Positions 13,220 to 60,099 of a stretch of 64,000 nt of DNA are shown here, one piece after another. Numbering within the stretch: position 1 is the first letter of the stretch; every line of letters starts with the position of its first letter. The translations under genes and the position numbers were made by a program. The DNA is taken from positions 5,892,501 through 5,956,500 of the forward strand of contig OX344755.2 of assembly GCA_947034885.2 (NCBI GenBank), written 5' to 3'. The notes under the pieces are model-generated. The model was given only the letters and a program-made list of their open reading frames with translations. It searched no databases and was not told where the DNA came from. The DNA is from Thuidium tamariscinum. Its lineage: Eukaryota > Streptophyta > Bryopsida > Hypnales > Thuidiaceae.

Positions 13220-13222
13220 AGC

Positions 13223-16200
13223 ATGGAACACGGGAGTACAAGCCTACCTGTTGGTACTTTTATTTGCATGGATAGGAATTGTACTTTACTACCAAAGCAC
13301 AAGGTGTTTCTGAGTCATAGTGGTGCTCAAAAAGATTTTGTAGAACAATTGTGTGTGGACTTGGAAAGATGTGACCGCCATCCTTTTCTTGACAAGCGTC
13401 GGGATTGCTTGCCCATTGGAGAGGACTTCCCAAGTCTCATCTTTGAAGCTATTGAGCAATGTGAAGTTGGGGTGGTGGTCCTATCAGAGGAGTTTTTTGC
13501 TTCAAAATGGCCCATGTTGGAATTGGTGGCCATGGCCAATATAAAGAAGAGGAAGCCCAACTTTACAATAATGCCAATTTTCCTTGGCATTACGTTTCCT
13601 CAATGTCGAGATCTGGATAATCATAAGAGATGGTTATCAATGTGGCATGCTTGGGCTGAACATGATAATAGGATTATTGTGCAAGATTGGGAAAATGCCT
13701 TGGGGTTGTTTGGCCCAACTAATGGCTTGAAGTACAACTTTGAATTGGGGGAAGTGAAATTTCGAGAAGAGATAGTTGAAGCCATTTGTAAATTGGTCTC
13801 CCCTCAAACAAGGTTTGAAGATTCCCATATTCAAGGGAGGTCTCGTTTGTGCAAGGTTTGTATGGAAAACCATTACTTTGGTGCTTCTAAGACCTTTTTG
13901 TCTTCATTCATGGGGAAGACTTACAAGGATGTTTGAATGCCTAGAAGTATCTTCTTACATTAATAGTGATGGTTTGCCTTGTGTGTCTAATTTCTTTGAT
14001 TTTGATTTTTTTCCCACCCCTCTTGGTTAATGTGTAGGTGATCTATAAAGCAATTGAAGAATCCAGAATGTCCTTGTTGCATGGAGTACATGTTGTAGGC
14101 TTATATGGAGTTGGAGGTATTGGAAAAACCACCATTTGCAAAGCTATGTGTAATGAATTATCCAAAGAGTATCATGACAAAGTATGTCACGTTGAGTTGG
14201 GAAGTCCAAGTGAACAAGAAGTGTTCAAAGAAGTGCTTAGAAAGCTTTCAAACAAAAATCTTCAACATTTAGAGGCAATGCATGTAGACCAGGTTTGTTG
14301 AACTATCCACTTTTAGAAAAGTATAGATACACTTTGTATATTCCATGTATTTCTTGTTGTGATAGAGTATATTGGAATAGCCTTTTGTATTTCTTTAGTT
14401 GATTGAAATTTGTTTTTCTTCAACTTGTTGGTTTTGCACTAACCTTGGGATGTTATTGACTTGTAGTATCGAGACCATCTCATGAGAGATATGATGGATG
14501 CCAAAGTGTTTTTGACAATTGACAATGTGTCAAGTGCAACTTCAAAGCAAGCTTTCACTCTTCTACAAGCCAAGTATGGTCCCGGTAGTGTGGTGCTTGT
14601 GACGGCACGTTCTTTGAGTGAATTAACATCTTTGCAAATTAATGCAAGTGAATGCATGGAAATGCCGGAGTTGGAGTTGGAAGAAGCAAGGTCTTTATTC
14701 CTTCATCGTGTTGCCTGTGTGCCTCCTTCATACTCGAGCAACAAGGATGACCTTGCTTTGATCTCATCTTGCATTGAGCGATGTCATTTCAAGAAAGGTC
14801 ATGGCATTAGTTATCATTATCACCCACTTGCATTGCAAGTGTTGGGTGAGCAATTGAGGTGTATTGGATATGTACCATCACGATGGTTGCTTCTCTTGCA
14901 TGAAATTGACTTTTTGAATCCTTTTGGAGAGATCAACCACCCTGTATTTTCCATCTTGAGAGTTAGCTTTGATGCATTGAATCCCCAAGATCAACTTCTA
15001 TTCATGGATGTGGCCCTATTTGGGCCTTACAACATAATTCGAAACATTTCATTGAAGTGGAACTTTTTTGAGTGGTTGGGTATGGTTCATGGAATCCCTA
15101 TGAGTAATGTGATGGAACGGGTGAGTATTCTTTGTTTGCTTAATGAGAGGTGCAATAAGTGTGACTACTTAATCACATAGCCTTTGAATATTTGACTTTT
15201 GAGATTTTCGTGGTTGAAACTTCATTTGTGTCATTTTGTTTATTTTCAATTGGGATTGAAGGATTGGTGTCTATGGTTGTTATAGTTTTTGGAGCTAGAT
15301 GAAGTCATTGGAAGATGTGCTACTTTTGACAAGTATTGTTTTTGTTCCCTTGTAGTTGGAGAACTTGAAGAGGAAATCGGTATTGGAAAATATTGGCGAT
15401 GGATTTGGAAGAATTGGCATACACGACTTGTGGCGTGAATTTGCAAGATTGGAAACTAAAGTTGGCAGGATTGAGAATAGACGATGGATTTATGAGTGGG
15501 GCGAGTACAATGTGCTTGGAGAATCCACTTTGCCTTTGGGTGGTGGTTTTGTAAACTTGAAGCGGATGTTTTTCTTGGACAAGGGATTTATGAAGTTGAA
15601 GGATGTAAATTTTGCATGTTTTTCCAATGTGACAGTTTTGAAGCTGTATTCGAACTTTGCAAGTGGATACAACTTGGATTTGAGAGGCTTCAACAATTTG
15701 AAGAGCTTGGAATTGGTAGGTAGCTCGTTAAAATCAATTGTTGGTCTAGATTCATTGCGGAACTTGGGCTACCTACGATGGTGGAACATGCCATCAAATT
15801 CAGCTTGTATCAATGAGATCAATTCTCTAACAAACCTTCGAGTATTGTATTTAAATGGATGCGGGCGAGCACCTAATTTGAGCAAACTTGTTGCACTGCA
15901 AGTGGCTCATTTCTGTAGTAGTGAGCCAATGGCAACCATTGAGGGATTGAGCTCAATGCACACCAACTTGCAATGCTTGGATTTGAGCAAATGCCGAACT
16001 TTGCGAAGTTGTTGGGGTGTAGGTGAATTAGTTGCATTGGAGGAACTTTGTCTTAGCTGGTGTTCTAAGCTAAAAGAGTTGCCCAACTTACAAAAGTTGA
16101 AACAACTACGAAAATTGGATGTTAGTTTGTGCGTCTTACTACGAGCTTTGCCGGGTTTGGGTGACCTTGTGAATTTGTTGGAGTTGAAGGCTGATGGTTG

Positions 16201-17428
16201 CTATCGTCTTGAGAAATTGCTAAACATGCACAAGCTCAAAAACTTGAAGATTTTGAATCTATGGAATTGCAGACTCATCAAATCTCTACCAGGTTTAGAT
16301 GAATTGGTTTGTTTGCAAACCCTAAAAATGACACATTGTAAGAATCTTATGAAGTTGCCAGATATGCAAAAGTTGACGAATCTACAAATTTTGGAGTTGG
16401 ATCGATACACCCCTCTACAATCTTTTGAAGGATGGAGCAATTTGATTTCTCTTGAGAGTTTAGAAGTTGGAATTGAGGATCTACATGATGGGCCTGATTT
16501 AAACAAGTTTACAAAACTCAAACATCTCTCCATTTCTAGGTGGCAATGCCATGAGTTTTTAAGCCTAATGAAGTTGGTATTATTGGAAACTCTTACTTTA
16601 GACATGTGTAAGGGTGTACATGTGTTGCTTGATTTCAAGAAATCATCAAGGCTACGAAGTTTACAAATTCATAGGTGTGAGTTTGAGGATTGGTCTAGTT
16701 TGTGCAATTTGGCTAATTTGACATATTTAAGGATTGAATACTGTAACAAGTTGGAGGCATTACCAAATCTAGGAGAGCTTGTCAAACTTCAAGATATAGG
16801 AGTCAGGGATTGTGCCTTGTTGAGAGACCTCCGTGGCATTTTTGGATTACCAAACTTAAATTGATTGTACGTGAATGGCAATCCATGCCTTTATGAGAAC
16901 TTGGGGTCAAACCTTCACCAGTTAACAAATTTGCACCACTTGGATTTGTCAAATGGTGCATTTACAAATTTGCAATGGTTGGCTTCTTGTTCAAAGCTGA
17001 ATTATTTGGATTGCAGTGGATGTCCCATCCGCGAGTTCCCAGACTTGGCCAACTTCCCTAAATTGTGCAAACTTATCTTGAGGAATTGTATAAATTTAAC
17101 AAACTTGACTTGCTCGATGCCCTTGACTTCCAATTTTAAATATTTGGACATTAGTGGATGCAAGGGGTTGGAAGCTCTTCCAAATTTGACCAACTCAACA
17201 CATATAGATTACTTGAACGTGGCCAACAGTGGAGTGGTATTGAATGCCCAACTCATTAAAGATATGAAAGCACGTTGGCCTTCCATCTATTTGGTCACTA
17301 ACCAAACTTCATATTCGATGCAAAGTCAAGGGAATTCTCAAGGGGTTTGGCATCGTACCATTGGAATGATCACATCACTTCATTGTGGATGCACTACAGC
17401 TTCCTTGGCAGATACTCATCTTAATTAA
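13223..17428 (+). CDS. TNL-A: TIR-NB-LRR immune receptor gene, four exons, with an in-frame UGA
   Basis: Predicted intracellular immune receptor of the TIR-NB-LRR class. Exons, all joined in phase 0, are 13223-13855, 14038-14292, 14467-15120 and 15356 onward; every intron has GT-AG borders and is 150-240 bp. Residues about 24-190 form the TIR domain, with KVFLSHSGAQKDFVEQL and the Glu of WPMLEL (E100) at the position of the catalytic NADase Glu. The NB-ARC has the P-loop GVGGIGKTT (235-243), a kinase-2 strand VFLTIDN (Asn replaces the usual second Asp), GSVVLVTAR (336-344), HPLALQVLG (415-423) and IHDL (536-539) at the MHD position. Exon 4 encodes leucine-rich repeats. An in-frame UGA at 16862-16864 ends the frame after 1016 codons, and 187 further open codons follow to 17428. 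The start has a uORF beside it. The sequence resembles conifer TNLs. Apart from the UGA no break is seen, so the gene may be functional as a shortened protein. Confidence 0.88.
16865..17428 (+). other. Post-UGA LRR tail of TNL-A, still open
   Basis: The 187 codons directly after the UGA continue the same reading frame and the same LRR pattern (LHHLDLSNGAFTNLQWLAS, FPKLCKLILRNCINLTNL and so on), ending in a short non-LRR tail. The matching 187 codons in TNL-B (52373-52936) differ by about 30 residues yet have no frameshift or stop. Either the UGA is a recent loss shared through the duplication or gene conversion, or it is sometimes read through. No splice site that would remove the UGA was seen; the GTACGT beside it lies just downstream of it. 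Confidence 0.7.
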
Positions 17429-21171: not shown

Positions 21172-21892
21172 TCTTGTCAACTCATCTCAAGCCATCCTAG
21201 GATTTGACTCAAGGATGCTTCAACCAAGTAGTGGTCCTATGAAATGAAATGGTTGCAAGAGCTTTCTACTTGTGAAACATGCAAATCACATCTCAATTAG
21301 TTAGGTGGAGTTGCAGCATGCTTGCAAAGCATTTTTTGTCCAATGCTTACTAGCTAGGTCCATATATATTGAAACCTTGTAGGAAACCAAATCATATACC
21401 AATTTCTTGCATTCTAAAGTTGTAAAGGGAACAATATCATAGCAGAGCTACAACCTTTGTTCTAATGGAAGCTAGCAAGAGGTATGATGTGTAGGGCTTC
21501 ATGTTCTTGTAAGATTATTTGGTTCTTTATAGGAGGTGGAATAATTGAAATGGTTGCAACGTTCTTTAGTCTTTACTAGTTTTAGTAGGGTGAGTTGCAA
21601 TATGGGGAACTTGAGTTCAACAAGTTTGTTGATTTCTACAATACAACATTGTTTTGGACCTTGTATTCGAATCTTGGAACCCTAAACCTCTAAACCCTAC
21701 ATCAAAAAAAGGATTGGTTTTGGCTAAGATTAGGTTTTTAGGCTTAGTAGTAGATTCAAGCTATCATGCATTGATTGCAAATTGATGTGGTTACAAATCT
21801 TAGAACATTTAAGTTTCTGCTTACAATGATTCTTGAAGAAGTATTTCTAGAAAAGGTTTATGTTTTGTAACAAGCAAGATTCTTGCTTCCAT
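21172..21892 (+). repeat. TNL 3'-flank segment, copy A part 1
   Basis: It is closely similar to 52971-53686 downstream of TNL-B, and its last ~400 bases also match segment C from about 32511. It holds no recognisable gene. It ends at the CAT target site where CACTA-3 inserted and resumes at 28857. Confidence 0.8.
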
Positions 21893-22227
21893 CACTAGTA
21901 GAAAATTCAGCATCCAAAATTACAAGAAAGTGTTGATTTTTTGTTGTTAATTAGGACGTGTTGATTTGGACAAAGATGAACAAAAAAGTGTTGGTTTGGA
22001 CGATCAAATTGACACTTTTTTGTTCTCTGTGAATATAGAAGTGTTCTTTTTTTTGTCCAATTTGACACGTTTGTGTTGATGATTGACATAAAAATGTTGA
22101 TTTAGATGCCCATTCATATAACAACTTCTTGCAACTCATAAATTTGAATACAATGTAGCAAATTATATATATTTGTCATATCATGGGAATATGGTGTCAT
22201 ATCATATAATACCTGAAGAAGGCTAGC

Positions 22228-22365
22228 TACAAAACATTTTGGCCTATAACCTCCAGAGCAGCTTCAAACACATTCTAGAGACTAGTGTCACCATTTTCAT
22301 CATCGCATTCTACCTCAAAATTACTCACGGCCCCAACCCCAATGAGGGACACTACATTGTACCAA
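22228..22365 (-). pseudogene. Unidentified captured exon in CACTA-3
   Basis: A good acceptor (ATATTGCAG) precedes a frame reading YNVVSLIGVGAVSNFEVEC and on to EAALEVIGQNV, interrupted by one in-frame TAG. The composition looks coding and it lies in the same orientation as the other captured pieces. I do not recognise the family. It could be a chance frame, since it is only about 45 codons long. Confidence 0.35.
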
Positions 22366-22729
22366 CTGCAATATAAGTGATGTAAATTATAGTAATTGCT
22401 TTGGCTCTTCATATGCTACATGGAATGAATCTGCAATAGCACGCAATCCTAGAGACTTATGGTTGAAAACAAGTGTGCAATCCAATGCTACTCACACCAC
22501 TGTCCTCAAAAAGCAACAGTCCCTATCCAACTAGAAAAGCAAAATATCAAAAAGTACCAGAAAAAAAAAGGCAACTGCAGCAGCCCTTCAAATCCACAAG
22601 CTCATTAAGAGTGTCTGCTTTGTTGTCTTTCGCTTACACCTTGAGATCCTTCTTGCTATATTGCAGAAATCCATCATCAAGAGGTGATATCTTTTACTTA
22701 AGAAAAAAATTACGGCTAGTTAGTAGATA

Positions 22730-23175
22730 GGTCATTTCGCTTAGGTTTGAATAAAAAATTTACAAAACAAACAATCCTTAGGGTTTGATCTTCGATTTTG
22801 GTAAATGCAATAAGTTTCGACAATCTCAAAGCCCCCCTTATTAATACAACAACCAGATTCTCAGCGGATACTAAAAAACATTGCGAAGAAGCCCAGAATT
22901 CTAAAAAACATTCTATCAACAAACGTGAATGTCATATGCGGGGAGCAGAGCACGAATAACAAGGCTATTTTGTATATTGGCCGTTCTGCTTAGGATTAAA
23001 TCAAATTCAAACGGTCTTTAAGGTTCGATCATTGATTTTGGTAAAAGCACTGAGGTCCGCTAATCTTCTAGCCCCCTAATAAACACTACAACCACATCCA
23101 CTGCAAATACTGAAAAACATCGCAAATAGCCAGAATTCTCCACAATATTTGATGTACACACTTGAATGAGATACG
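22730..23175. repeat. Diverged tandem duplication inside CACTA-3
   Basis: About 200 bases at 22730-22930 recur, diverged, at about 22985-23175. Shared landmarks in order are CGCTTAGG / TGCTTAGG, TTCGATTTTGGTAAA / TTGATTTTGGTAAA, AAAAACATTGCGAA / AAAAACATCGCAAA and GAGCAGAGCACGA / GAGCAGAGCACAA. The unit may be exon plus 3' UTR of the captured gene fragment beside it. Confidence 0.6.
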
Positions 23176-23459
23176 CCAAGAGCAGAGCACAAGAGTCTTC
23201 TCCTTGTTTCGGAATGCCACAGGAACAACAAGAGCAATTTCCAAGGTCTCGTTGGTTCCATTGGCGATTGCTTCAGGGGTATGAGCAACTTGTGATTTGA
23301 GCCCAGCAAGGTGCGCTTCCGAGGAGGCTCCGCTTCTACTACAACAGGCCTGTTCTTTTCAAGCTCTATGTCTACCTTAGCTTCATGCATGCCAATCACC
23401 AAACGTTTTGAATGCACAAATTTAAATGTTAAACCATTGCTAGCATTATACTTTGCCAA
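23076..23459 (-). pseudogene. Open captured frame downstream of the PRP31 exon
   Basis: A 127-codon minus-strand frame begins AKYNASNGLTFKFV and continues through LEKNRPVVVEAEPPRKRTLL. It follows the PRP31-like C-terminal exon with almost no gap. The YNASNGLT stretch recalls the PRP31 tail (YASNGLTS type) but the rest does not match what I know of PRP31, so the identity stays open. The distal part overlaps the duplicated 200-bp unit and is unlikely to be native coding sequence. Confidence 0.35.
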
Positions 23460-23485
23460 AAATGAGGCAATCGCAGCACACTTAC

Positions 23486-24199
23486 TTCTTCTTTAACTTT
23501 GCAGCAAGCTTGCTCTGACAAATAGAGACTCGCAGTTTACCACTGCTCGCCTGTCCAAGCATACCGTAGCCTTCTCCCAAACCATCCCCTACGCACAATA
23601 CAACCACAGCTTAGTCATCAGTCACCAAAGAGCATCGCACTTGTAGAAAGAAGGATTCATGCCTATATTGAAAATCGATAAAAAAATGTTTAAAAAGTTA
23701 CAAAGAGTATTGACTTTCAAAATAATTTGTGTATTCACCTTGGGTAGTCAGGTATTAAAGAAAGATCAAATGGTCACTCTTAGGCAAAATAGAATCAAAA
23801 AATGCTAAAAGAACCTAATCTGGACACAACTTTTTGGAAAAGCCCTGCTAGACCTTTGTGACAAGAAAGGAAGCAGAGCTTTTAAGTAGAATATACGCAA
23901 AAACCTTTGTTCAGTTACTGAAATACCCAAAACTCAGAAACATATGACAAAGAAAAGGCATAGTCGAGAAACAATCTGCCAATTCAGCGCTCGTTGCCGA
24001 TACTGACGTTCACAATTATCGATTTACAGTATCCACAAAAGAAAGACAAAACTCTTTTATATAGATTCAACATAGAAAAACTTACAATAAAGAAAAGGTA
24101 ACAAGGCATGAGAGGAAGAAGCGAAAAGCATACCTCATCGTGATTTTCATTGTCAGACAAGTCCTCTAAATCTGCCAAGAAGGAGTCTGCTAATGTCAC
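23486..24199 (-). pseudogene. PRP31: Captured PRP31 fragment: first and a late exon, middle deleted
   Basis: PRP31 is a U4/U6 snRNP protein needed for spliceosome assembly. Positions 24199-24134 encode VTLADSFLADLEDLSDNE, matching the plant PRP31 N-terminus (MATLxDSFLADLDELSDNE), and end in a GTATGC donor. Positions 23588-23486 encode DGLGEGYGMLGQASSGKLRV and SKLAAKLKK, matching the region after the NOP domain, with a GTAG-type acceptor (GTGCGTAG) and a GTAAGT donor. Only about 545 bases separate them and no NOP-domain sequence is present, so several hundred codons are gone. The position of the start codon reads GTG. It lies inside CACTA-3 and is a relic, not a working gene; a full PRP31 must exist elsewhere. 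Confidence 0.75.
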
Positions 24200-24520
24200 C
24201 TACGCACAAAAATGCCAAGACGTATTAATATTCCTCCATACCCAGACGAAATTGCACAAGTACAACTGAAAACCCCAAACCCTAATCATCCACCAAAACA
24301 CAATCCGCATCGTAATTCACGTTGTGAGACAAAGAGAAAAAAATCGTAATCAATAAACAAAAAATCAGTGAACTTCCGAGTGCTATTAATTTTGTTTTAT
24401 GGGAGGGAAAAAACCACAAATCCTTCAAACAACAACCCATCACGCAACATTACAAAAACCCAAAACCCAGAACTAAAATAAGTGTGATCAACAATTTCTG
24501 AAGGGAAAAGCAAAGCGTAC

Positions 24521-24765
24521 CATGATTCCGAATGCAACAAACGATGGTGGCAACAACTGTTCAACAAATTTGGCAATCACACTTCGAGACCTTTCAGATC
24601 GTCAACTGAGACTCCTTCCCTCGTAAGAAGCCTCTTGATGGAGGAATGAATAAAGATAGGGCACTCTTCAAAATCAGCGTTCAACTCATCCTCGCTAGGG
24701 AACAATTTCGAATCCAAAATGAGGCAGCGCAGCTTCTTTTGGTCGACACCACGCTGAGGATACAA
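24521..24765 (-). pseudogene. Unidentified captured exon upstream of the PRP31 piece
   Basis: A minus-strand frame reads KKLRCLILDSKLFPSEDEL, then ECPIFIHSSIKRLLTREG and VDDLKGLEV, and looks strongly coding. In a shifted frame the next bases read RSVIAKFVEQLLPPSFVAFG and end ATG|GTACGC, a usable donor at 24520. The following PRP31 exon starts in the matching phase, so splicing could fuse the two. I do not recognise the protein family. The apparent frame change near 24580 suggests decay. It belongs to the cargo of CACTA-3. Confidence 0.5.
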
Positions 24766-25288
24766 GCCTTAAGGTCGAGTGTAGTGCTCATCAATATTCG
24801 CGCACCGTCGAGTAATTATGTTCCCATGGCTTGTTATGGGACCTCCAAAGGAAAACAAGCAGCGTTCCCAATGTAGGGAACGATGGCGTCCTTGGGGACC
24901 CGTAACAAGACGTGTGGGCCCTAGACTCTAAACCCTAAATACACTTGAAGCGTAAATCTGACAGATAATCCATGACAGATAATCCATGCCTGCATAATGT
25001 AGTACTTTCAACGGATATAGTCCAGATCGTCCAAATCGTTCTGCCTCAAAAGAATGACAGTAAACCTTCGATAAATTAACCCTTAATATGACTTACTCAT
25101 ATCTGTTTGTCAATAAACATATAGGCAATATAAGAAATAAACAGATTCGGGAATCTTCCGTCCATATTCAGTCCAAGAAGTGGAACATACTTTTTTGTGG
25201 TCAGTAACAAGCATAAACGCTCAAACTTTGCATCAAAATCCTTACCCAGCTAACGTTTCGAACTTGCATGCCAAAATTTCACCCCGCT

Positions 25289-28200
25289 CTAACATGTCAT
25301 GATAATCGTTTGCTCCGGAATATCCCTCGAATCTGAATTTTCCAAACCAGTACCATCTGCTCGATTAACAGCAGTAGGATGATCTTCAATAACTCCAAAA
25401 ATGTAAGATTCAATTGCAAGGTCTTTAGCACCCTCGCTATTTTCAACAGTGTGCAATGCCATGCCCGCTTCGACTTGCCATGATTCTCCAGCGACATGTT
25501 GTATGACAGCTGCACTTGAAGTGGTTTCTAAATCGCTCAGTATCTCTACGTTGCTCTGTAATGCATCGCCTACAGGACTGTCTCTCATTTTAAGACCCTC
25601 ATTAGTCTTTAAACAATTATCACTCTACTTTCCATCATCAGAGTCACAACCAGCATCTTGCTTTCCCGCATGCTCTACACTCATCGCCTCAGATTCAACA
25701 TCCTTCGATTGACCACTTTCAACGAAGTCTACCACATCTCTTTCTTCGGAGACCGTATTATTCTTCGCCTCTTGCTGTACAGTAGTATTTACCATAGAAA
25801 CAGCCTCCTAAGACAAGACCTCGTGAGTTGGATCACTCTTTGAATGTGGATCCTTAAGTGGACGCTTGCTGTCCATTTCAAGTCCATCTTAAAGATTACT
25901 CCCTTTTAAGACTTCACTCTCATAAAATGCATAAGCTGCAGGCTTCTCCCATGTTGTTTCACCGGTAACCTTGTTCCAGTAGTAATACTCAGAAGTCTCT
26001 TTAAGCAAAACTGATTCCCACTCGCATAATATTTCCATCTCTTTCGTATCCACCTCTACAAAAGGTACCCAATCCAACGAAGACACGAAAATCAGTAATT
26101 AGTTCAGGAGCACTAACATGCAACTATGTTAACAAACAGAGAAGGAAAGGTATTCTTACAAACGTACAACTAGGGACTACGTGATCCAACCATGATATGT
26201 CACTCCGAGACCTCAAATCCACCCTTCTGTGTTACAGAAAACTTTGTACCTTGTGCAAGGTTGGCTTGTTTGGCACCTTCAGACCCCGTAGGCCCGTATC
26301 ATCTTTATGATGAATACTCTCATCCTTCAAAAGACCGCTCGTTTCTAGGTCAGCAAGAAAATCGGCCACCTTCAAAACAAAAACACAAAATGTCAAACTA
26401 AGTCGGAAGTCAATTTAATTTGGTTTAGACTCCAACTACAGAAAAAGATATCGACTGCGTTGCGCCATAAGTCCTAGCTTTAATAAAACCTATTTAACAG
26501 TAGGCAGCACATTAACTCTGAAGCGCGCCGACGTCCATATTCTGGACGATGAACAGAGGGCTTCAAGGCCCTAATTCATCCAATTAACTTCTCATTTATC
26601 AAATGTAATACTTGAATTTAGAAAAGACAACCTTCTTTAATGACCAAATTCATTAAATTCTGGAAAATGACATATATGTACAAAGCTATAAGCGAAAATG
26701 TGCAAAAATTCAAAAAAGAATTGAGATGCTTAAGGATTAAATGCTAGCATAGGGTACCTGCTCATCCACTCGACCCACAACAGCGACAGCAGGAAAACCT
26801 CCACTCGAGCCATTTGCGAGCGCTTTCTCTTGTTCTTCGTCTTCATCACTGTATTGACCCAAAAGTGACAGTGGATTTACCTGCACAGGGCCTGCACATT
26901 TGAAAGAGAATTGAGTAAGTAGACGCAACATCCAGGAAAAGTTGTTCCCCGAGTCTCTTCCGCCTCTACTTGGGGAACCTCAACTCACCACCAACCTTAG
27001 ATTTAAGTTAGCACAAAGGAGAGAGGCTCTGAAGAGACCCCTAACCTTTGGTTGCATAACACCACAATAGAGATGATAGGAAAAGGGGGAGGATATGACA
27101 AACCAAATAAGCTAGAAACATACAAACCGAGTGCTGCCGATCTGCAAATCTCCACCCGCGCAATCCAGCTGGCACCACAAATGACAAAGAAGAAGAGGCT
27201 CAACAATATCTGATTCAAAGTCCCTCCAGAGCGAGGAAGGCCCGCTTCCAACAAAAGCACTCGGAGCCAGCTAGAGGCCTCATATTCACTCTCAAGTTTC
27301 CAGACCATTTTCGGCTGAACCAAGTTTGTACAAAGTAGAATGCCTCGAGAAAAAAATGCCCTAGCAGAAAAACTATCGATTGCAGGACCACCATGAAGGT
27401 TGGCCCGGTGAACCCACCTGGTAGCGCATGCGGAGAAAGTCTTTCATCGCTTTCAACACTAGTCTTTTCACCTCCTTCCTTCGTCGTCGAACTGACATTC
27501 ATATTCATCTCTGCAAGACTGTCCGATCTCCAAATATAAGAAAATATACGCAAACCCTAGTACATAAGGAGAAGGTGTTGGGAACAGACTCGAACCTAGC
27601 AGAGATCCAATCAGGAACATAGAAAATGCTAGAATGCAAATAATTATTGCGATAACAAACATTGAGCCAATCGAGATCACCTGTTCCTTTCAACCTCGAT
27701 AATCTACCACCACCAGCTAGCACGACGTGAAAATTCAGGTAAACTATATCAAAGAGATGCATGATTCCAGCAACGACTCTGCAAAGTCGCGACCTCTCAA
27801 TAATCACTTATATACTCTAAAATCCAATAAGAATAATATAAGATCAAACACATAATCGTGAAGCAAAAATATTCTGAGATGAAGAAACTAGACTTCAACA
27901 AAGAAAGAGACTTTACACACTTTTGTCCGAAAAGAAAATAGTAACTACAACATCTAACTAATCTGGGCTAAAATCCAACAACATCAAATTTTGAATGCAT
28001 TTTAGCCGAGCACACTAATATAAAATTGCATACACTAGAAAATGCAGCAGCGTACTGAGATTCAACAAACACAGAAAACCCTAACCAAAACAATAACAAA
28101 TGATACATTGTAAAATTCGCGAAATTGCACAAATTCGCAGCAAAAGAACACGAATCAAAACATAGCGAAAGTGAAAATGAAAACAACAACAAAGCAAGTA

Positions 28201-28476
28201 ATTCAGCACAATTCCCTCGGAAAAAAATTTACGTAACTCAAGCGTTTCAAGAGCTAAGATCCAACAACATCCAAAAAACGGAAAAACTAATCAAATTCAG
28301 CAAGCAACTACCGGGCAAAAACAAAAGCAGAAAAATAACCCAAAACTCATTCTAATTACGAGCGGAGCAAGATCCAACACTAAAATTCAGACCATTCAAC
28401 CTCCAAGGAACAGAATTGAAGCCAAGTCCGAGCAGAAAGCTTAAGGGAAAGACGACGGATACGAACCTTCAACCAT
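25289..28476 (-). pseudogene. Captured 5' part of a WW-domain FNBP4-like gene
   Basis: Plant formin-binding-protein-4-like proteins are nuclear WW-domain proteins of poorly known function. Exons can be placed with GT-AG borders and matching phase: 28476-28467 (start ATG in a GCCATGG context, MVEG), 26891-26758 (NPLSLLGQYSDEDEE), 26369-26250 (VADFLADLETSGLLKDES) and 26053 onward. The last contains a WW domain, from CEWESVLL through EYYYWNKVTGETTWEKP. The final exon continues in one frame to 25289 but has three in-frame stops, at about 25889 (TAA), 25799 (TAG) and 25631 (TAG). The large first intron (28466-26892) is retained. The C-terminal half of the gene is missing. The four upstream exons are clean, so a short WW protein could still be made; as cargo of CACTA-3 it is best called a pseudogene. 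Confidence 0.72.
26892..28466 (-). other. Retained first intron of the captured FNBP4-like fragment
   Basis: It is bounded by GAAG|GTTCGT and AATGTGCAG|GCC on the minus strand. The open frames inside it, on both strands, show no family resemblance and are ordinary intron sequence. Confidence 0.6.
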
Positions 28477-28856
28477 GGCGACCTCGTCGTGGCAGCCCTC
28501 AACCCTTCGTTCTCAAGCTGCGCTTGACGACTTGCGCGAGATGATGGACACCCGTCAGCCTCCTCCTCCACTTCCTCCGCTCATTTGAGAGCCTTACCGG
28601 GCCAGTACAGCTTCGTCTGGGCAATCTTCAGAGAGCAAACACAAAAACCCTAAACCAGCCCATTCTCGAAGTTTCCGGTTCAAGGTCTGCGCCGCAATTC
28701 GAGTCATTGGAGTGTAAGCGTCTAGCAAGGGCCCATAAAAATATGTTGCGAACATTGACAGAGTTCACAACTAAATGTGTATATGGACATTGCAGTATAC
28801 AAATCAACAAAAAAGTGTTAAGTTTTTGTTGATTTAGACACCATTTTCTAGTAGTG

Positions 28857-29561
28857 CATCAAAGTACAAGGATCTTGTCAATTGCAACAAGTACATGGAG
28901 CTCATAAACTTCAAATTCCATGGCATTTGACAATTGACATGAAAACAATAGAATGCCTTTTTGAAGCAAAGAAGATTGCTTGTTGCTTGCATGAATTAAG
29001 GCAATCATTGAAGAGCCTTCTCTTTGTTTTGTGTGCCCAAATCTTGAAAGCTCTATTGCTTGCTATAGCATCTCAATTTTGATTTTGCTTGTAGTTGTTG
29101 TTTCACATGACTATATTTGTCATTTTTTTAATATTTTAGAGAATTTGGATGTTTCGTTTTGCATCCATCGTTCATTAATTTGCACTCATATTTACAAAGA
29201 TGTAGAAGTTGTAGATCTTTCTATTTGAAGAACCAAATGTTGTTGGATAGTATATTTGCGAATTTTGATGGGTGTGCAAATAAAATTTGATCTTCTTTGA
29301 ATCCTTTGGTATTTTGAAAAGACTCATAGCTTTGAAACATGATATGAGTTTTTGTATAGTTTTTTAGTGAATATTTCATGATTTTGAGTGAAGTATGAGA
29401 AGACTTTTTTGGGCCAAGGATGAAAGAGTGAAGGCTATGTTGCAATATTTTTTGCTTCTTCGTAGAATATGGATTGTTTTTGCAACATGTGATCTTATTT
29501 TTATCTTATTGATTAAGTAGCTCTTGTATTCCAATTGTAAGACATTCTACTTTTGTTAATA
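28857..29561 (+). repeat. TNL 3'-flank segment, copy A part 2
   Basis: It is the continuation of 21172-21892 and matches 53687-54385 in copy B and 32904-33600 in segment C. A frame at about 29031-29228 (ILENLDVSFCIH) is similar in copies A and B but broken in C and has no known domain. The segment stops where CACTA-4 begins and does not resume after it. Confidence 0.8.
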
Positions 29562-30959
29562 CACTAGTAGAAAATCCTGTCCAGATCAACAGAAAACCAA
29601 CTGATTTTTGTTGTTTTTTGTTGTTTTTTGTTGAATGGAGCACTGCACGGACTATTTGTAAACATCAACAGAACAAGCTGTCATTTTCTGTTGATTCGAG
29701 TAATGCGATGACCAAATCAACAAAATTTTGTTGTTTTTGACTCTTTTAAGAATCTTTTAGGAATCTTTTAGGAATCTTCTAGGAATCTTTAAAAATCTTT
29801 AGGAATCTTTAGGAATTTTTAGAAAATAGGAATTTTTAGGAATTTTTAAGAATCTTTAGGAATCTTTTGAATTGTGATGGAATCTAGTGGAATGTGATGG
29901 AATCTAATAGAATGTAATGAATGTGATGAAATGAAAGTTTATATCTTCTTCTAAAATCTTGTATATTCTGTAGGAATTTTTAAATTCTACTTGTCACATC
30001 AACAATAAGTTTAGAATAATTTGGAATGTTTAGAGAATGTAGCAAAAGGGAAGGTTAGCACATTGATGTTGATAAACTAATGAACTTCACAATATTTAAA
30101 TATGCTTTGAAGCTATTTTCAAGTTTAAAATAGGCCCTTTCTGGTGCAATCTTTGTCGCATATATCTTTTGTGAAATTCTTACCAAAGTTGTATGCACTT
30201 CAAATACAAAATGCATAAAATTTCAATCCAATTGATTCAATTTGTAATTAAAAATTTTGTTTTAAAAACTCTATATATTCTTTTGAGTTATAAATAGTTT
30301 GGATAATTGTAGCAAGTAGATTCAATTAAGTGGTCAAAAATTCTTCATACTACATACTTTGAACTATATTATTAACATAAGCCCAAAATTTGAATTACAT
30401 ACAAGTATAAAATTTTATCTTACTATCATTTTGAGAAATATTCAAATTAAAACAACAAAATTGAAATTCTATGCAATGAAAGTATTTTTTTTCAACTTAA
30501 TCATTTACAATTCAATGTTTTTCTTAACTCAGCAGACTTTGGACGTCATTTACACATAGAAAATCATCTTTTTCTAAAAAAGTTTGCACTAAGAAAAGTT
30601 GGGCAATGAAGTTAACTTTCACCTCCAAAAATCCGTTTCAGATTTTGAGCCTTCAATCAAAAGTTATGCACAAAGTTCAGAGAGAGGTTGGAAGGAAATG
30701 TTTTTTGACATTTTCAAACATCCACTCTGAATTTTGTTCAGCTGCCCGAATATTTTGGGCAGGGTTTGAAAAAATTTCAGTTGCTCGGATGTTTCAGGCA
30801 GCTGAAAAAAATTTGAAAATTTTTGGGAAAAAAAAGTGTCCAAAACAACAAAAGGAATAACAATTTTCTGTTGGTTTCTATTGATGATCAACTTGACCAA
30901 ATCAACAAAAAATGATCAACAGTTTTCAGTTGATTTTAATCCTGAATTTTCTACTAGTG
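29562..30959. mobile_element. CACTA-4: small CACTA element of the CACTA-3 family
   Basis: The left end is CACTAGTAGAAAATCC and the complement of the right end is CACTAGTAGAAAATTC. Subterminal regions repeat ATCAACA(A)AAA and TTGTTGATTT motifs shared with CACTA-3, so both probably used one transposase. The flanking triplets are ATA and ACA, not a perfect duplication. The interior has an AGGAATCTTT minisatellite and no recognisable gene. Confidence 0.82.
29741..29872. repeat. AGGAATCTTT minisatellite
   Basis: About a dozen degenerate units of 9-12 bases of type TTTTAGGAATC / TTTAGGAATCT run in tandem just inside the left end of CACTA-4. Confidence 0.8.
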
Positions 30960-32510: not shown

Positions 32511-35280
32511 CCATGTTCTTGTCATATTATTTGGTTCTTTGTAGGAAGTGGAATAATTGAAATAGTTGCAATGCTCTTTAGTCTTTATTAGTTTTATTAG
32601 GGTGAATTGCAATAGACGGAACTTGAGTTCAACAAGTTTGTCGATCTCTACAAGGCAACATTGTTTTGGACCTTGTATTTAAATTCTAAAATCCTAAACC
32701 ATTGAATTGTACATCAAATAAGGATTGGTTTTGGCTAAAATTAGGTTTGAAGCCTTAGTAGTAGATTCAAGTTAATTATCATGCTTGAGTACAAACCGAT
32801 GTGGTTACAAATCTTAGAACATTTAAGTTTGTGCTTACAATCACTCTACAAAAACTATTTTTAGAAAAAGTATATGCTTTGGCACAAGCAAGATTCTTGC
32901 TTCCATCTAAGTACAAGGAGCTTGTCAATTGCAACAAGTTCATGGAATTCATAAACTTCAAATCCCATGGCATTTGGCAATTGACATGAAAACAATAGAA
33001 TGCCTTTTCAAAGCAAAGTAGACTATTTGGTGCTTGCATAAACAAGGCAATCATTGGAGAGCCTTCTCTTTGTTTGATGTGCCCAAATCTTGAAATTAAA
33101 GCACTATTGCTTGTTGTAGCATCTCAATTTTGATTTTGTTTGTAGTTGCTGTTTTGCATCACTATGCTTGTCATTGCTTCAACAATTTAGAGAATTTGGG
33201 TGCTTCTTTTTGAGTCCGTCTTTCATTAATTTGCTCTCATATTTACAAAGATGTAGAACTTGCAAATCTTTCTATTTCAAGAATTACACATTGTTGGATA
33301 GTATATTTGCAAGTTTTGATGGGCTTGCAAATAAAATTTGATCCACTTTGAATTCTTTGGCATTTTAAAAGGATCCATAGCTTTGAAACATGATTTGAGA
33401 TTTTGTATAGTTTTTTGGTGAGTATTTAATGATTTTGAGTGAAGTATGACGAGACTTTTGTGGGACAAGAATGAAAGAGTGAAGGCTAAATTGCAATATC
33501 TTTTGGTTCTTCATAAAATATGGATTGTTTTTGCAACATGTGATCTTATTTTTATCTTATTCATCAAGTAGCTCTTCTTTACTAATAGTAAGGCATTCCA
33601 CTTTGGTTGAAAAAAGTGGATTTGAAATGGAATTTTGGCATGAATCCTTTTGTTGAGATTTTCTGTCATTTAATAAGAATTTGTAGATTGATTCGTATTT
33701 TAAACTTTTCCAAACTAGAGTACAAACTAAATTTGACAAGCTTCATTTCATTAGTTGTACTCAGCTTTGGAAATATTAGAAAAGAAATAAGGCTTCAAAA
33801 GGGTTGCAAGTTATTTACAAGTTCTCAAACTTGGAAGCTCAAACTAAAAATATGTGGTATACGCCTTGGCAGCTTAGGTGGCTAGGACACTACTTTGATG
33901 TATTGAAGAATAAAAATCTATTTTTGTAAATTAAAAGTATGAAAATAAAAAAATAGCCAGGCTTGGCCGCCTGGCCTCCTGGCCTGTGAAGGTAGGTTGT
34001 CTGCCTATCTGGCTTGTCAAGATGGGCTGCCTCCTTCACCACCTAATGAATTTTTATTTTTATTTATTTTTTGTTTTAATTTCTTACATATTATTTGGTA
34101 TTCCCAGTATAGGGAACAAAGTTGAAGCCCCTCTTGAAGCTTCATTTTGCCTCTAATGGAACATTTTCACAGCTAAAACCACACTATACCTAGGGTAGGA
34201 CACTTTCCATTTTTTAATAACCTACGTGCGGCGGAATATAGGGTACATTTAAATAATCTTAGGTAAAATTTATAATAAATTTACATATAAAATAGGGGAC
34301 ATTAAAAAGGCAAAGTGTTTTTAAAAATAAAATAGGGATGATAATATGGCTGATTTTTCCGCTTTATGGTAAAATAGGGACTCTTTTAATGTTGCCACTT
34401 GCCAAGTAATGATTACAAGTAATTGATAGCCCCCCTAAAAATACCCCACCGCCGAACATGGGTCCCCCAAATATACAAGAAGTGTCCTTCTCGGGCACTA
34501 TACATATAGTGTAGCTATATCTTAAATATAGCATTTGCAATAATATATTTCATAGGCTTCACTTTTCACTTTCAACCAAGATGTTAGTTTATGTTGTCTC
34601 CAAGATGAGGTTTGCGCATGCAAAACTTCACTGGCAAAAGGAAGTTCTCTATGTTGGCCATCTTAGGTGTTGCCAAGCACAAATTTAAAGTTTGGATATT
34701 TGTGTAAAAATTGTTGTCACCCAAAGCCTTCAAAGTTGAAAATGGAATCCCAAAGCTTTCAATTAATGGGTCTCATAAGTCATAAGTAGTGTGGAGAGCA
34801 ACAAGACCTTAGTTTTTGAACTTTCATTACAAGCCCCTACTCATTTTTTTTTGTTAGTCCTTTTTCCTCAATCAGTGTGTGGTTGTTTTAAGAACATATA
34901 TTTGCATCTCTAGCAATATTAGAAAATTATAGATGAATCCATAATTCAATTTCTTTTCATAAATTTGTTAATTTATTCATAAAAATATTGAAATTTCTCA
35001 TTCTAAGGAGTCTCCAAAGTCCAGACCCTTCAGTCACTTGTCATTGCTGATACATTTTTTATTCTTATTTATTCTCAAGAAAGTGATGAACATATTTTAA
35101 GTTTGACAAATTACAAACCCATTTTAATTGACACCTCAACTGAATTCGCAACCCTCAGAAACTCAATTTGGGCTAAGAATGTTAAGCTTTGAAGCCCACA
35201 TTCTTCTCAGGAGACAGTGTGGCACTACATATCACAAAATCCTGAACACAATCACAGTCAAATGAGATGGAGTTCAGGGC
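32511..35280 (+). repeat. Segment C: third copy of the TNL 3' flank without a TNL gene
   Basis: From about 32511 it matches copy B from about 53297 to 55265, with the same order of small landmarks (CATCAAAGAAGGATTGG type, TTGCTTCCATC, AACCAAGATGTTAGTTTATG). It contains the CACTA-3 empty site at 32904-32906. Relative to copy B it has an insertion at about 33770-34150 that includes a GC-rich GGCCTGGC-like patch, and a small element at 34189-34496. It lies between two direct copies of R1. Confidence 0.75.
34189..34496. mobile_element. Small inverted-repeat DNA element (308 bp) in segment C
   Basis: It starts CCTAGGGTAGGACACTT and the complement of its right end starts GCCCGAGAAGGACACTT. It is flanked by ACTATA at 34183-34188 and 34497-34502. 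Copy B has a single GTACTATATGG at this place and lacks the element. Superfamily is uncertain from such short ends; a Mutator-like or unclassified MITE is possible. Confidence 0.55.
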
Positions 35281-48558: not shown

Positions 48559-51500
48559 ATGGAGCAAGGGAGCACAAATTTGTCTACAAGCAAGGGTGAC
48601 AATGCTCGGTTAGTAGTACTTATGAAATGAGATTCCTTGCATCATTCTTCACCAATCAAGCATATATTATAATTGCAATTGTTCCAAAATAGCGGCTCAA
48701 CCTCAATTATAATACAATAATTAGTTTTGCATTCACTATTGATTGATTGGGTGGTACTTTTGTTTGCATAAACAGGAATTGTACTTTATTACCAAAGCAC
48801 AAGGTAATTTTGAGCCATAGTGGTGTACAGAAAGATTTTGTAGAACAATTGTGTGTGGACTTGGAGAGATGTGACTGCCATCCTTTTCTTGACAAGCGTC
48901 GAGATTGCTTGCCCATTGGAAAGGACTTCCCAAGTCTCATCTTTGAAACTATTGAGCAATGTGAAGTTGGAGTGGTGGTCCTATCGGAGGAGTTCTTTGC
49001 TTCAAAATGGCCCATGTTGGAGTTGGTGGCCATGGCCAATGTCAAGAAGAGGAAGCCTAACTTTACAATAATGCCAATTTTCCTTGGCATTACGTTTCGT
49101 CAATGTCGTGATGTGGATAACCATAAGAGATGGATATCATTGTGGCATGCTTGGGCGGAATGTGATAATAGGATTATTGTGCAAGATTGGGAAAATGCCT
49201 TGCAATTGTTTGGCCCAACCAACGGCTTGAGGTACAACTTTGAATTGGGGGAAGTGAAATTTCGAGAGGAGATAGTTGAAGCCATTTGTAAGTTGGTCCC
49301 CCCTCAAACAAGGTTTGAAGATTCTCATGTTCAAGGGAGGTCTCGTTTGTGCAAGGTTTGTATGAAAAACCATTACTTTGGTGCTTCTAAGTCCTTTTTG
49401 TCTTTGTGAGAACGACTTATAAGGATATTGTTTGAATGCCTAGAAGTATCCTCTTACATTGGTAGTGATGGTTTGCCTTGTCAGTGTAACTTCTTTGATT
49501 TTGATTTTTTTCCCACCTTTCTCGGTTAATATGTAGGTGATCTATAAAGCAATACAGGAATCAAGAATGTCTTTGTTGCATGGAATACATATAGTAGGCT
49601 TATATGGAGTTGGAGGTATTGGAAAAACCACCATTTGTAAAGCTATGTGTAATGAATTATCCAAAGAGTATCTTGACAAAGTATGTCATGCGGAGTTGGG
49701 AAGTCGAAGTGAACAAGAAGTGTTCAAAGAAGTGCTTCGAAAGCTTTCAAACAAAAATCTTCAACATTTAGAGGCAATGCATGTAGACCAGGTTTGTTGA
49801 ACTAACCACTTTTAGAAAAACATAGATGCACATTGTATATTCCATGTATTTGTTGTTGTGGAGTACACTGGAACAACCTTAAATTTTAACTTTTTAGTTG
49901 ATTTTAAATTGTTTTTCTTCAACTTGTTGGTTTTGCACTAACCTTGGGATGTTATTGACTTGTAGTATCGAGACCATTTCATGAGAGATATGATGGATGT
50001 CAAAGTGTTTTTGACAATTGACAATGTGTCAAATGCAACTTCAAAGCAAGCTTTGACTCTTCTACAAGCCAATTATGGTCCCAGTAGTGTGGTGCTTGTG
50101 ACAGCACGTTCTTTGAGTGAATTAACATCTTTACAAATTGAAGCAAGTGAATGCATGGAAATGCCAGAGCTGGAGTTGGAAGAAGCAAGGTCGTTATTCC
50201 TTCATCATGTTGCATGTGTCCCTCCTTCATACTCGAACAACAAGGATGACCTTGCTTTGATCTCATCTTGCATTGAGCGATGTCATTTCATGAAAGGTGA
50301 TGGCATTAGTTACCATTATCACCCACTTGCATTGCAAGTGTTAGGTGAGCAATTGAGGTGTATTGGATATGTGCCATCACGATGGTTGATTCTCTTGCAT
50401 GAAATTGACTTTTTGAATCCTTTTGGAGAGATCCAACACCCTGTATTCTCCATCTTGAGAATTAGCTTTGATGCATTGAGTCCCCAAGATCAACTTCTAT
50501 TCATGGATGTGGTCATATTTAGGCCTTACAAGAGAAGTCAACACAGGTCATCCAAGTGGAAGTTTTTTGAATTTTTTGAATGGTTGAGTATGGTTCATGG
50601 AATCCCTATGAATAATGTTTTGGAACGGGTGAGTATTCTTTGTTTGCTTAATGAGAGGTGCAATAAGTGTGACTACTTATTCACATAGCCTTTGAATTTT
50701 TGACTTTTGAGATTTTCATGGTTGAAACTTCATTTGAGTCATTTTGTCTACTTTCAATTGGGATTGAAGGACTGGTGATTATGGTTGCAATAGTTTTTGG
50801 AGGTAGATGAGGTCATTGCAAGATGTGCTACTATTGACAAGTATTGTTTTTGTTCCCTTGTAGTTGGAGAACCTTAAGAGGAAATCGGTATTGGAGAATA
50901 TTGGTGATGGATTTGGAATAATTGGCATACATGACTTGTGGCATGAGTTTGCAAGATTGGAAACTAAAGCTGGCATGATTGAAAATAGACGATGGATTTT
51001 TGAGTGGGACGAGTACAATGTGCTTGGAGAATCCAGTTTGCCTTGGGGTGGTGGTTTTGTAAACTCGAGGCGCATGTTTTTCTTAGACAAGGGATTTATG
51101 AAGTTGAAGGATGTAGATTTTGCATGTTTCCCCAATGTGACAGTTTTGAAGCTTTATACAAACTTTGCAATTGGATACAACTTGGATTTGAGAGGTCTCA
51201 ACAATTTGAAGAGTTTGGAATTGAAATGTAGCTTGTTGAAATCAATTGTTGGTCTAGGTTCGTTGCGGAACTTGGGCTTTCTACGATAGTTGAACATGCC
51301 ATCAAATTCACCTTGCATCAATGAGATTAATTCTTTAACAAACCTTCAAGTGTTGGATTTGTATGGATGTGGGCGAGCACCTAATTTGAGTAAACTTGTT
51401 GCACTACAAGTGGCTTGTTTTCGTAATAGTGAGCCAATGGCAACCATTGAGGGATTGAGCTCAATGCACACCAACTTGCAATGGTTGGATTTGAGTGACT

Positions 51501-52936
51501 CCAGAACTTTGCAAAGTTGTTTGGATTTAGGTGAATTAGTTGCATTGGAGGAACTGTGTCTTAGCTGGTGATCTAAGCTAAAAGAGGTGCCCAACTTACA
51601 GAAGTTGAAACAACTACGAAAATTGGATGTCAGTTGGTGCAACTTACTGCAAGCTTTGCCGGGTTTGGGTGACCTTGTTAACTTGTTGGAGTTGAAGGCT
51701 TATTTTTGCTATCGTCTTGAAAAATTACCAGACATGCACAACTTCAAAAACTTGAAGATTTTGAATCTAAGCTATTGCGGACTCATCAAATCTCTACCAA
51801 GTTTAGATGAATTGGTTTGTTTGCAAACCCTAAAAATGAAAGGTTGTAAGAATCTTACCAAGTTGCTAGATATGCAGAAGTTGTCAAATCTACAAATTTT
51901 GGAGTTGGATCGAAACACCCCTCTACACTCTTTTGAAGGATGGAGCAACTTGATTTTGTTTGAGAGTCTAGAAGTTGGAATTGAGGATATACATGATGGG
52001 CCTAATTTAAGCAAGTTTACAAAACTCAAATATCTCTCTATTTCTAGGTGGCAAAGCCATGAGTTTTCAAGCCTAATGAAGTTGGTATTACTAGAAACTC
52101 TTAGTTTGGACATGTGCAAGGATGTACGTGCGTTGTCTAATTTTAAGAAATTATCAAGGCTACGGTGCTTGGATATTTGTAGGTGCGAGTTTGAGGATTG
52201 GTCTAGTTTGTGCAATTTGGCTAATTTAACAGATTTAAGCATTGAAGATTGTAACAAGTTGGAGGCATTACCAAATCTAGGAGAGCTTGTCAAACTTCGA
52301 GATATACGCGTCAGGGATTGTGCCTTGTTGAGAGACCTTCATGGCATTCTTGGACTGCAAAACTTAAATTGATTGTACGTGAATGGCAATCCATGCCTTC
52401 ATGAGAACTTGGGGTCAAACCTCCACCAATTATCAAGTTTACGCCACTTGGATTTGTCAAATGGTGCATTTACAAATTTGCAATGGTTGGCTTCTTGTTC
52501 AAAGCTGGATTATTTGAATTGCAGTGGATGTCCCATCCGCAAGTTCCCAGACTTAGCCAACTTCCCTAAATTGAGCAAACTAAACTTGCAGAATTGTGTA
52601 AACTTAACAAACTTGACTTGCTCGATGCCCTTGACTTCCAATTTTGAATATTTAAACATTAGTGGATGTAAGGGGTTGCAAGCTCTTCCAGATTTGACAA
52701 AGTCAGAGAATATGAAATTCTTGAATGTGGCCAACAGTGAGGTGGTATTGAGTGCCCAACTCATCAAAGATATGAAAGCACATTGGCCTTCCATTGAGTT
52801 GGTCGCCAACCAAACTTCATATTCGATGCAAAATCAAGGGAATTCTCAAGGGGTTTGGCATCGTACTATTGGAATGATCACATCACTTCGTTGTGGATGC
52901 ACTACAACTTCCTTCGCAGATACTCATCTTAATTAA
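48559..52936 (+). pseudogene. TNL-B: duplicated TIR-NB-LRR gene, decayed
   Basis: Same exon plan as TNL-A: TIR exon to 49355, 49537-49791 (P-loop GVGGIGKTT), 49966-50628 and 50864-52936, with conserved splice borders. The start ATG (48559) is kept, but about 150 bases are inserted after roughly ten codons, at 48590-48740, and the frame closes soon after; the TIR frame then resumes at 48747 without an ATG. In the LRR exon there are private stops at 51287-51289 (TAG where TNL-A has TGG) and 51569-51571 (TGA where TNL-A has TGT), plus the UGA shared with TNL-A at 52370-52372. The remaining TIR, NB-ARC and LRR motifs are well preserved, so decay is recent. Confidence 0.88.
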
Positions 52937-55270
52937 TGGTGTTAGCATCAAGAGCCTTGAGACTTTAAAGTCTTGTCAACTCATCCCAAGCCATCATAGG
53001 ATTGGATTGAATGATGCTTCAACCAAGTAGTGGTCCTATCAAATCAAATGGTTGCAAAAACTTTCTACTTGTGAGACATGCAAATCATATCTCAATTAGT
53101 TAGGTAGAGTTGCAACATGCTTGCAAAGCACTTTTTGCCCAATGCTTACTGGCTAGGTCCATATTGAAACCTTGAAAGAGAGCAGATTATATACCAATTT
53201 CCTACATTCCAAAGAAGTGAAGGGAACAATATCATGGTAGAGCTACAACCTTTGTTCTAATGGAAGCTAGCAAGAGGTATGATGTGTAGGGCTTCATGTT
53301 CTTGTAACATTATTTGGTTCTTTATAGGAAGTGGAATAATTGAAATGGTTGCAATGCTCTTTAGTCTTTACTAGTTTTAGTAGGGTGAGTTGCAATAGGG
53401 GGAACTTGAGTTCAACAAGTTTGTTGATCTCTACAAGGCAACATTGTTTTGGACCTTGTATTCAAATCTTGGAACCCTAAACCTCTAAACCCTACATCAA
53501 AGAAGGATTGGTTTTGGCTAAGATTAGGTTTTTAGCCTTAGTAGTAGATTCAAGCTATCATGCATTGATTTCAAATTGATGTGGTTACAAGTCTTAGAAC
53601 ATTTAAGTTTGTGCTTATAGTGATTTTTCAAGAAGGATTTCTAGAAAAGGTTTATGCTTTGTTACAAGCAAGATTCTTGCTTCCATCGAAGCACAAGGAG
53701 CTTGTCAATTGCAACAAGTACATGGAGCTCATAAACTTCAAATCCCATGGCATTTGGCAATTGACATGAAAACAATGCAATGCCTTTTTGAAGCAAAGAA
53801 GATTGCTTGTTGCTTGCATGAATAAGGCAATCATTGAAGAGACTTCTCTTTGTTTTGTGTGCCCAAATCTTGTAAGCACTATTGCTTACTATAGCATCTC
53901 AATTTTGATTTTGCTTGGAGTTGTTGTTTTACATGACTATGTTTGTCATTTCTTCAATATTTTAGAGAATTTGGATGTTTCCTTTTGCATCCATCTTTCA
54001 TTGATTTGCACTCATATTCACAAAGATGTAGAAGTTGTAGATCTTTCTATTTGAAGAACCAAATGTTGTTAGATAGTATATTTGCAAGTTTTGATGGGTG
54101 TGTAAATAAAATTTGATCTTCTTTGAATTCTTTGGTATTTTGAAAAGACTCATAGCTTTGAAACATGATTTGAGATTTTGTATACTTTTTTAGTGAATAT
54201 TTCATGATTTTGAGTGAAGTATGACAAGACTTTTTGGGGACAAGGATGAAAGAGTGAAGGCTAAGTTGCAATATTTTTTTGGTTCTTCATAGAATGTGGA
54301 TTGTTTTTGCAACATGTGATCTTATTTTTATCTTATTGATTAAGTAGCTCTTGTATTTCATTAGTAAGACATTCTACTTTTGTTGATGAAAGTAGATTCA
54401 AAGTGGAATGTTGGCATGAATCCATGTGTTGAGATTTTTTGGCATTTAATCAAAATTGGTAGATGAAATTACATTCAAAACTTCTCCAAACTAGAGTAGA
54501 ATGACAAGCCTCATTTCATTAGCTATACTCCACTTTCAAAAAAACATTTTCACAACTAAAATTGTACTATATGGATAGTGTAGCTCTATTCTAAATATAA
54601 CATTTGTAATAGAGTATATTCTATAGATTTCACTTTTCAGTTTCAACCAAGATGTTAGTTTATGTTGTCTCCAGTATGAGGTTTGCACATGCAAAACTTC
54701 ATTGACCAAAGAATGTTCTCACTATAGGCCACCATCGATGTTGCCAACTATACATTCAAGGTTTAGATATTTGTATAAATATTGTTGTCACCTAAAGCCT
54801 TTAAAGTTGAAATGGAGTTCTAAAGCTTTCAATTAATGGGTCTCATAAGTAGTGTGGAGAACAACAAGACCTTAGTTTTTGAACTTTCATTGCAAGCTCC
54901 TACTCATTTTCCTTTGTTAAGTCCTTTTTTTAAATCAATGCAAAGTTGTTCCAAGAACATATATTTATATCTTTCACAATATTAGAGAATTGTAGATGCT
55001 TATCTTTTATAGTACCATAAGTCCATAATTCAGATTTTTTTAATGTAAATTTATCATAAATATATTCGAATTTTCATTCTGAGGAGTCTTCAAAGTCTAA
55101 ACCCTTCAGTCACTCATCATTGGTAAGACATTTTTCCATCATATTTATTCTTAAAATGATGATGAACATATTTTGAATTTCACAAATTATAAACCCATTC
55201 CAAAATACCATTTTAAATTAACACCTCAACTGAATTTCTAGACCTCAGGAACTCAATTTGGGCTAAAAAT
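52937..55270 (+). repeat. TNL-B 3' flank, uninterrupted reference copy
   Basis: It contains the empty sites for CACTA-2 (TCT, 52971-52973) and CACTA-3 (CAT, 53684-53686). It matches copy A parts 1 and 2 and segment C. No gene is recognisable. Confidence 0.8.
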
Positions 55271-59819: not shown

Positions 59820-60099
59820 ATTGTTGTCATGTAATTCATGGATTGGAGAAAAATGTCCATACTCATTGATGCCATCTTCACTCCCTGATCCAAGTTGGAA
59901 AGTTGGTGCAGCAAATTCTTCATTATGCCTACAACTCCAATTGTTATTTGATGTTCATGTCTTGTACCAAAAAAGGACAAAGGAAAGCCACATTACATAC
60001 TATATATCTCTAAATCAGATTCCTATATATCTTTACCATTCTTTTGGAACTATACACCTAGAAAAATCCTTAGTGGAAAAAAAATGAGAATATCTCCAC

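Follow-up and report, generated by a model that had tools for sequence, protein, structure and literature searches.

The window, a stretch of 64,000 nucleotides from the moss Thuidium tamariscinum (C7:5892501-5956500, in a genome of 363 Mb and 19 contigs), contains a CACTA element of 6,964 bp at positions 21893-28856. We consider it likely (probability roughly 0.85) that this element is a non-autonomous, multi-gene Pack-CACTA that acquired its cargo by stepwise capture, was mobilized in trans and is now decaying. The original prediction, that a CACTA element had captured fragments from two or more host genes, is borne out, and the two-gene cargo is replaced by pieces from four donor loci. Multi-gene Pack-CACTAs are already known in flowering plants, and the moss case extends them.

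The terminal inverted repeats of the element start with CACTA. The left end at 21893 is CACTAGTAGAAAAT, and the right end, which finishes at 28856, is ATTTTCTAGTAGTG; after inversion, 13 of 14 terminal bases agree between them. The element is flanked by a CAT target duplication, and its joined 600-bp flank runs unbroken at two other places in the window, each with a single CAT: 53388-53985 (94%; CAT at 53684-53686) and 32607-33210 (85%; CAT at 32904-32906). Ends, duplication and both empty sites had been predicted from the letters alone, and all proved real on recomputation. Inverted CACTA ends and a 3-bp duplication place the element in the CACTA superfamily.

The paralogous empty sites are explained by the flanking repeat, a TIR-NBS-LRR gene locus present in duplicate. 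Two gene copies with TIR and LRR domains lie at 13220-17428 and 48747-52936 and are 91% alike over 4.2 kb. These gene copies were duplicated together with their 3' flanks, and an extra flank copy is present at 32512-33768. The element sits in the 3' flanking DNA of one gene copy. Within the left end of the element, the subterminal DNA contains a 48-bp inverted match (79%), and similar motifs are apparent by eye. Outside the element, 73 bp at 30887-30959 are 75% like its left end, in inverted orientation, and perhaps represent another CACTA end.

As predicted, no transposase is visible: 10 of the 38 ORFs of at least 60 aa in the element were scanned, and none of these 10 contains a transposase domain. 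A transposase made elsewhere would have cut and pasted the element by way of its CACTA ends, with the 3' flank of the TIR-NBS-LRR gene copy as its target; the insertion itself is demonstrated by the duplication and the empty sites. At least 150 places in the genome exceed the cut-off for Transposase_21 (150 of 627 candidates scored) and could supply such an enzyme, though no autonomous partner bearing the ends of this family was identified.

Table 1. Features of the CACTA element and its target duplication, in window coordinates
Feature	Position	Strand	Remark
CAT target duplication, left copy	21890..21892	.	recomputed
Left terminus of CACTA family	21893..22291	+	first 346 bp common to at least 38 other places
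Brix-domain gene piece, first exon and next intron	22419..23355	-	donor C7:13922737-13923695
PRP31 piece, 5' region and C-terminal exon	23389..24653	-	donor C7:20229482-20232668; 1.9 kb of middle exons absent
First exon of DA2-like RING E3 gene	24654..24835	-	donor C4:20768509-20768700
Block common to family copy at C1:27352151	24836..25050	.	source unplaced; part 24903-25000 dispersed
FNBP4-like piece, WW domain included, from within exon 1 to intron	25084..28490	-	donor in C2:17945976-17951230
Dispersed 225-bp insert within FNBP4 piece	26516..26740	.	absent from donor; TTAA-like duplication by eye
Right terminus of CACTA family	28708..28856	+	recurs in other copies
CAT target duplication, right copy	28857..28859	.	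recomputed

With the 225-bp insert excluded, the four host-gene pieces account for 5,566 of the 6,964 bases. About 80% of the element interior matches the four host loci, and ~1.2 kb has no assigned source. All four pieces are in sense on the minus strand, and donors for all of them were found elsewhere in the genome. The FNBP4-like and PRP31 pieces, whose possible status as sole genomic copies would have counted against the original prediction, have donors on C2 and C7.

The FNBP4-like piece is collinear with its donor, and the sole break is the dispersed insert (a query containing this insert gave 1614 candidates). The donor frame, which starts with exon MGKRRERRHAV, is open in the captured exons. 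For the part of the piece at 25084-26505, the two candidate places obtained in the genome are the window and the C2 donor. The right edge of the piece lies within exon 1 and the left edge in an intron; breakpoints, which had been expected within introns, are thus seen both in an intron and in exons.

The PRP31 donor occupies C7:20229482-20233156, where exons for residues 23-482 were located piecewise; residues 2-23 are in L049. A single TAA in the donor falls in the splice donor past the exon. Window positions 23637-24653 (87%) and 23389-23639 (93%) match two separate parts of this donor, and the 1.9 kb between these parts is missing from the element. Two ORFs from the PRP31 region had no match in PDB. 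The ORF at 24577-24768 was considered as a PRP31 leader and dropped, being the DA2-like exon fused to PRP31 upstream DNA.

The DA2-like piece matches its donor at 89%. In this donor the first exon, MGNKITRR...EECPICFL, is open and YPSLNRSKCC is encoded farther along; a motif suggests that the gene encodes a DA2-like RING E3. The remaining piece matches its donor at 88% and is assigned to a Brix-domain gene because Brix-domain exons (C7:13922123-13922484) neighbor the donor match on the same strand; judging from its N-terminal motif, this gene is presumably BRX1. Searches of Pfam, PDB and NCBIfam with the Brix and DA2-like first exons returned nothing useful.

The FNBP4-like and PRP31 pieces retain introns, as was predicted. 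Retained introns in the cargo rule out a retrocopy source and thus indicate capture at the DNA level. Separately, intron-free PRP31 copies with stops are present at C4:11924883-11926301 (67%) and C6:14779791-14781131 (58%, both relative to Sphagnum PRP31), and these are probable retrocopies.

The left end of the element occurs from its first base at no fewer than 39 places when the window is counted; of 287 candidates, 40 were scored. A sample of 20 copies, with sizes of 2.8-8.0 kb, was fetched. In this sample the two ends occur as a pair that encloses other cargos, and exact 3-bp target duplications are found in 15 of the 20 copies. An identical duplication is lacking in L010, L020, L021, L023 and L027, some of which have altered end bases. 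Other copies with different or fewer cargos, which had been named as a check on the prediction, exist. Whole interiors are common to L009, L011 and L019, to L013, L016 and L023, and to L015 and L025, and nine of 21 copies, window included, carry more than 1.2 kb that is absent from the rest of the set. With no transposase domain in the ORFs scanned, host donors elsewhere and a multi-copy mobile family, the element has the testable properties of a Pack-CACTA.

The cargo of the other copies was scanned against Pfam by using 40 entries that represent 39 different ORFs (32 minus, 7 plus). Four of the 39 passed the cut-off, corresponding to a CRAL-TRIO piece (L021, 2.2e-7), an importin-alpha IBB domain (L019, profile 1-54, 5.5e-8) and a P450 start detected twice over the same shared stretch (L012 and L013, profile 1-72, E 7e-13). 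The other 35 fell under the cut-off, including weak matches to PTP-SAK, RST (in L010), MucB_RseB_C and DUF6126. A PDB search revealed an LSF2-like phosphatase piece in L028 (4e-6) and no match for an ORF of L024. One family copy has an open frame of 457 aa (L026:4425-5795, minus strand) with no Pfam match.

Capture order was marked as inference in the original prediction, and some evidence for it now comes from the divergence and distribution of the pieces. When C>T and G>A changes are left out, divergence from the donor is 1.1% for FNBP4, 3.3-3.7% for PRP31, 4.6% for Brix and, as a weak estimate (2 changes in 182 bases), 1.1% for the DA2-like piece, values that are to be read as ranks and not as dates, as donor genes may differ in rate. 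A PRP31 exon is found in at least 18 elements, window included, all of them among the left ends listed; of the 20 fetched copies, 10 carry it. A sister copy at C9:7898364-7902555 has the Brix, PRP31 and DA2-like pieces and no FNBP4 piece.

These data suggest that the pieces were captured at different times. Distribution and divergence both support an order in which the PRP31 and Brix pieces, common to relatives, are older and the FNBP4 piece is the latest. Either FNBP4 was added last or it was lost from the C9 sister, and its low divergence favors addition. Because the DA2-like piece is common to that sister, it probably precedes FNBP4. The element line would thus have gained genomic pieces serially, PRP31 and Brix early and FNBP4 last, in this copy alone.

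From donor to copy, 310 substitutions are observed over 5,534 aligned bases. C>T or G>A changes number 184, versus 40 T>C or A>G changes (p 3e-23 in a binomial test of an even split, sites being treated as independent), whereas the same comparison of the element flanks with their paralogue gives 30 versus 23. Among FNBP4 cytosines, 10.9% have changed in CHG, 7.5% in CG and 3.3% in CHH contexts, and three Gln codons of the FNBP4 donor are in-frame stops in the copy. The excess of C>T and G>A from donor to copy, together with the Gln-to-stop changes, marks the transposon copy as derived. The substitution pattern also suggests that the element copy was probably methylated and that it is decaying, probably by deamination of methylated cytosines. 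A new chimeric gene under selection, instead of decaying cargo, would be in keeping with the several splice-site-like junctions and open stretches that the FNBP4 piece keeps. However, we regard such a gene as very improbable in view of the three in-frame stops, the C>T excess throughout the pieces, and the DA2-like piece, which has a frameshift past its start codon and a further stop. The least probable reading, in which two unrelated elements supplied the ends and the interior came together by accident as a patchwork, is refuted by the matching duplication and empty sites and by the recurrence of the same end pair in the fetched sample, with exact duplications in 15 of the 20 copies.

A tandem-insertion model of capture has been proposed for Arabidopsis Pack-CACTAs, according to the available parts of two reports (PMC13317346, PMC8903248). 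Capture in the moss family most likely took this course: two members lying close together beside a host gene would have lost their facing ends and been remobilized by their outer ends. The sequence at 24830-24892 resembles the right subterminal DNA of L015 and L025 (74-75% over ~62 bp), and its C1 counterpart continues into other DNA. This resemblance is only suggestive of a relic inner end, as the model predicts. It is also possible, as a tentative second choice, that pieces of the same element were captured by gap repair with template switching after excision or a nick, so that several donors were joined in few events. The DA2-like and PRP31 pieces directly abut at 24653/24654, and the PRP31 deletion point has a 3-bp overlap, both of which fit microhomology repair. 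However, the pieces differ in divergence and in how they are distributed among copies, which speaks against one repair event, and stepwise capture by a CACTA element mobilized in trans remains our preferred reading.

The family might also capture directionally, with 5' gene ends added in sense on the minus strand, such that a polar ratchet stacks first exons and promoters. Each of the four pieces in the window holds a gene start region, and the P450, importin-alpha, LSF2-like and CRAL-TRIO pieces of other copies have the same orientation as the window pieces. We nevertheless consider this proposal doubtful, and the strand ratio among the scanned ORFs of other copies means that the sample cannot prove polarity.

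The host had been thought a probable gymnosperm, which was wrong. Among organism-named matches to the FNBP4-like cargo (21 matches in all, named or not), similarity is 50% over 97% for Ceratodon purpureus and 43-45% over 98% for Physcomitrium, weaker for Sphagnum and weak for flowering plants. The flanking LRR ORF has 83 matches, and Ceratodon supplies the two best of those that carry an organism name; the 27 matches ranked above them carry none. The nearest organism-named relatives of both sequences are thus mosses, and these rule out a gymnosperm host.

Pack-MULEs have Mutator-like ends and duplications of ~9 bp, capture host genes serially and reportedly favor the 5' ends of genes. The moss element is like them in serial capture of host gene pieces, but its CACTA ends and 3-bp duplication exclude it from that group. 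A closer parallel is Tgm-Express1 of soybean, described in the available part of PMC1947982 as a CACTA element of 5.7 kb with five host gene fragments. Both are non-autonomous, of similar size, and carry several unrelated host pieces that keep exons and introns (PMC1947982). However, Tgm-Express1 resides within a gene intron of a flowering plant and is transcribed and spliced (PMC1947982), whereas the moss element lies downstream of a TIR-NBS-LRR gene and is known from genome sequence alone.

Pack-CACTAs of maize often hold several loci, as stated in the accessible portion of PMC8903248. Those of Arabidopsis and maize share with the moss element CACTA ends, no transposase found and coding DNA from several loci (PMC8903248, PMC13317346). 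Both studies concern flowering plants, and the word moss does not occur in the available text of either; in the moss element, the cargo pieces have a relative age ranking. CACTA elements are reported to be the largest TIR class of another moss, Ptychostomum knowltonii. Searches of a collection of open-access papers listed no report of gene capture by CACTA elements in mosses or other bryophytes.

In the moss case, one genome contains the donors, the empty sites and also family copies with fewer cargos, and this unusually complete record makes capture order, polarity and mechanism testable. It might be speculated that the PRP31 piece, given its presence in many elements, feeds small RNAs against a splicing gene.

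Across the whole window, neither an Rfam family nor, in a search under the bacterial code, a tRNA was detected. The window also contains, in this moss genome, an uninterrupted 639-aa frame for a piggyBac-type transposase at 58035-59954 on the minus strand (PF13843, E 2.4e-73), and a tandem array at 60172-60536 with a 118-bp unit repeated 3.1 times (95% matches).
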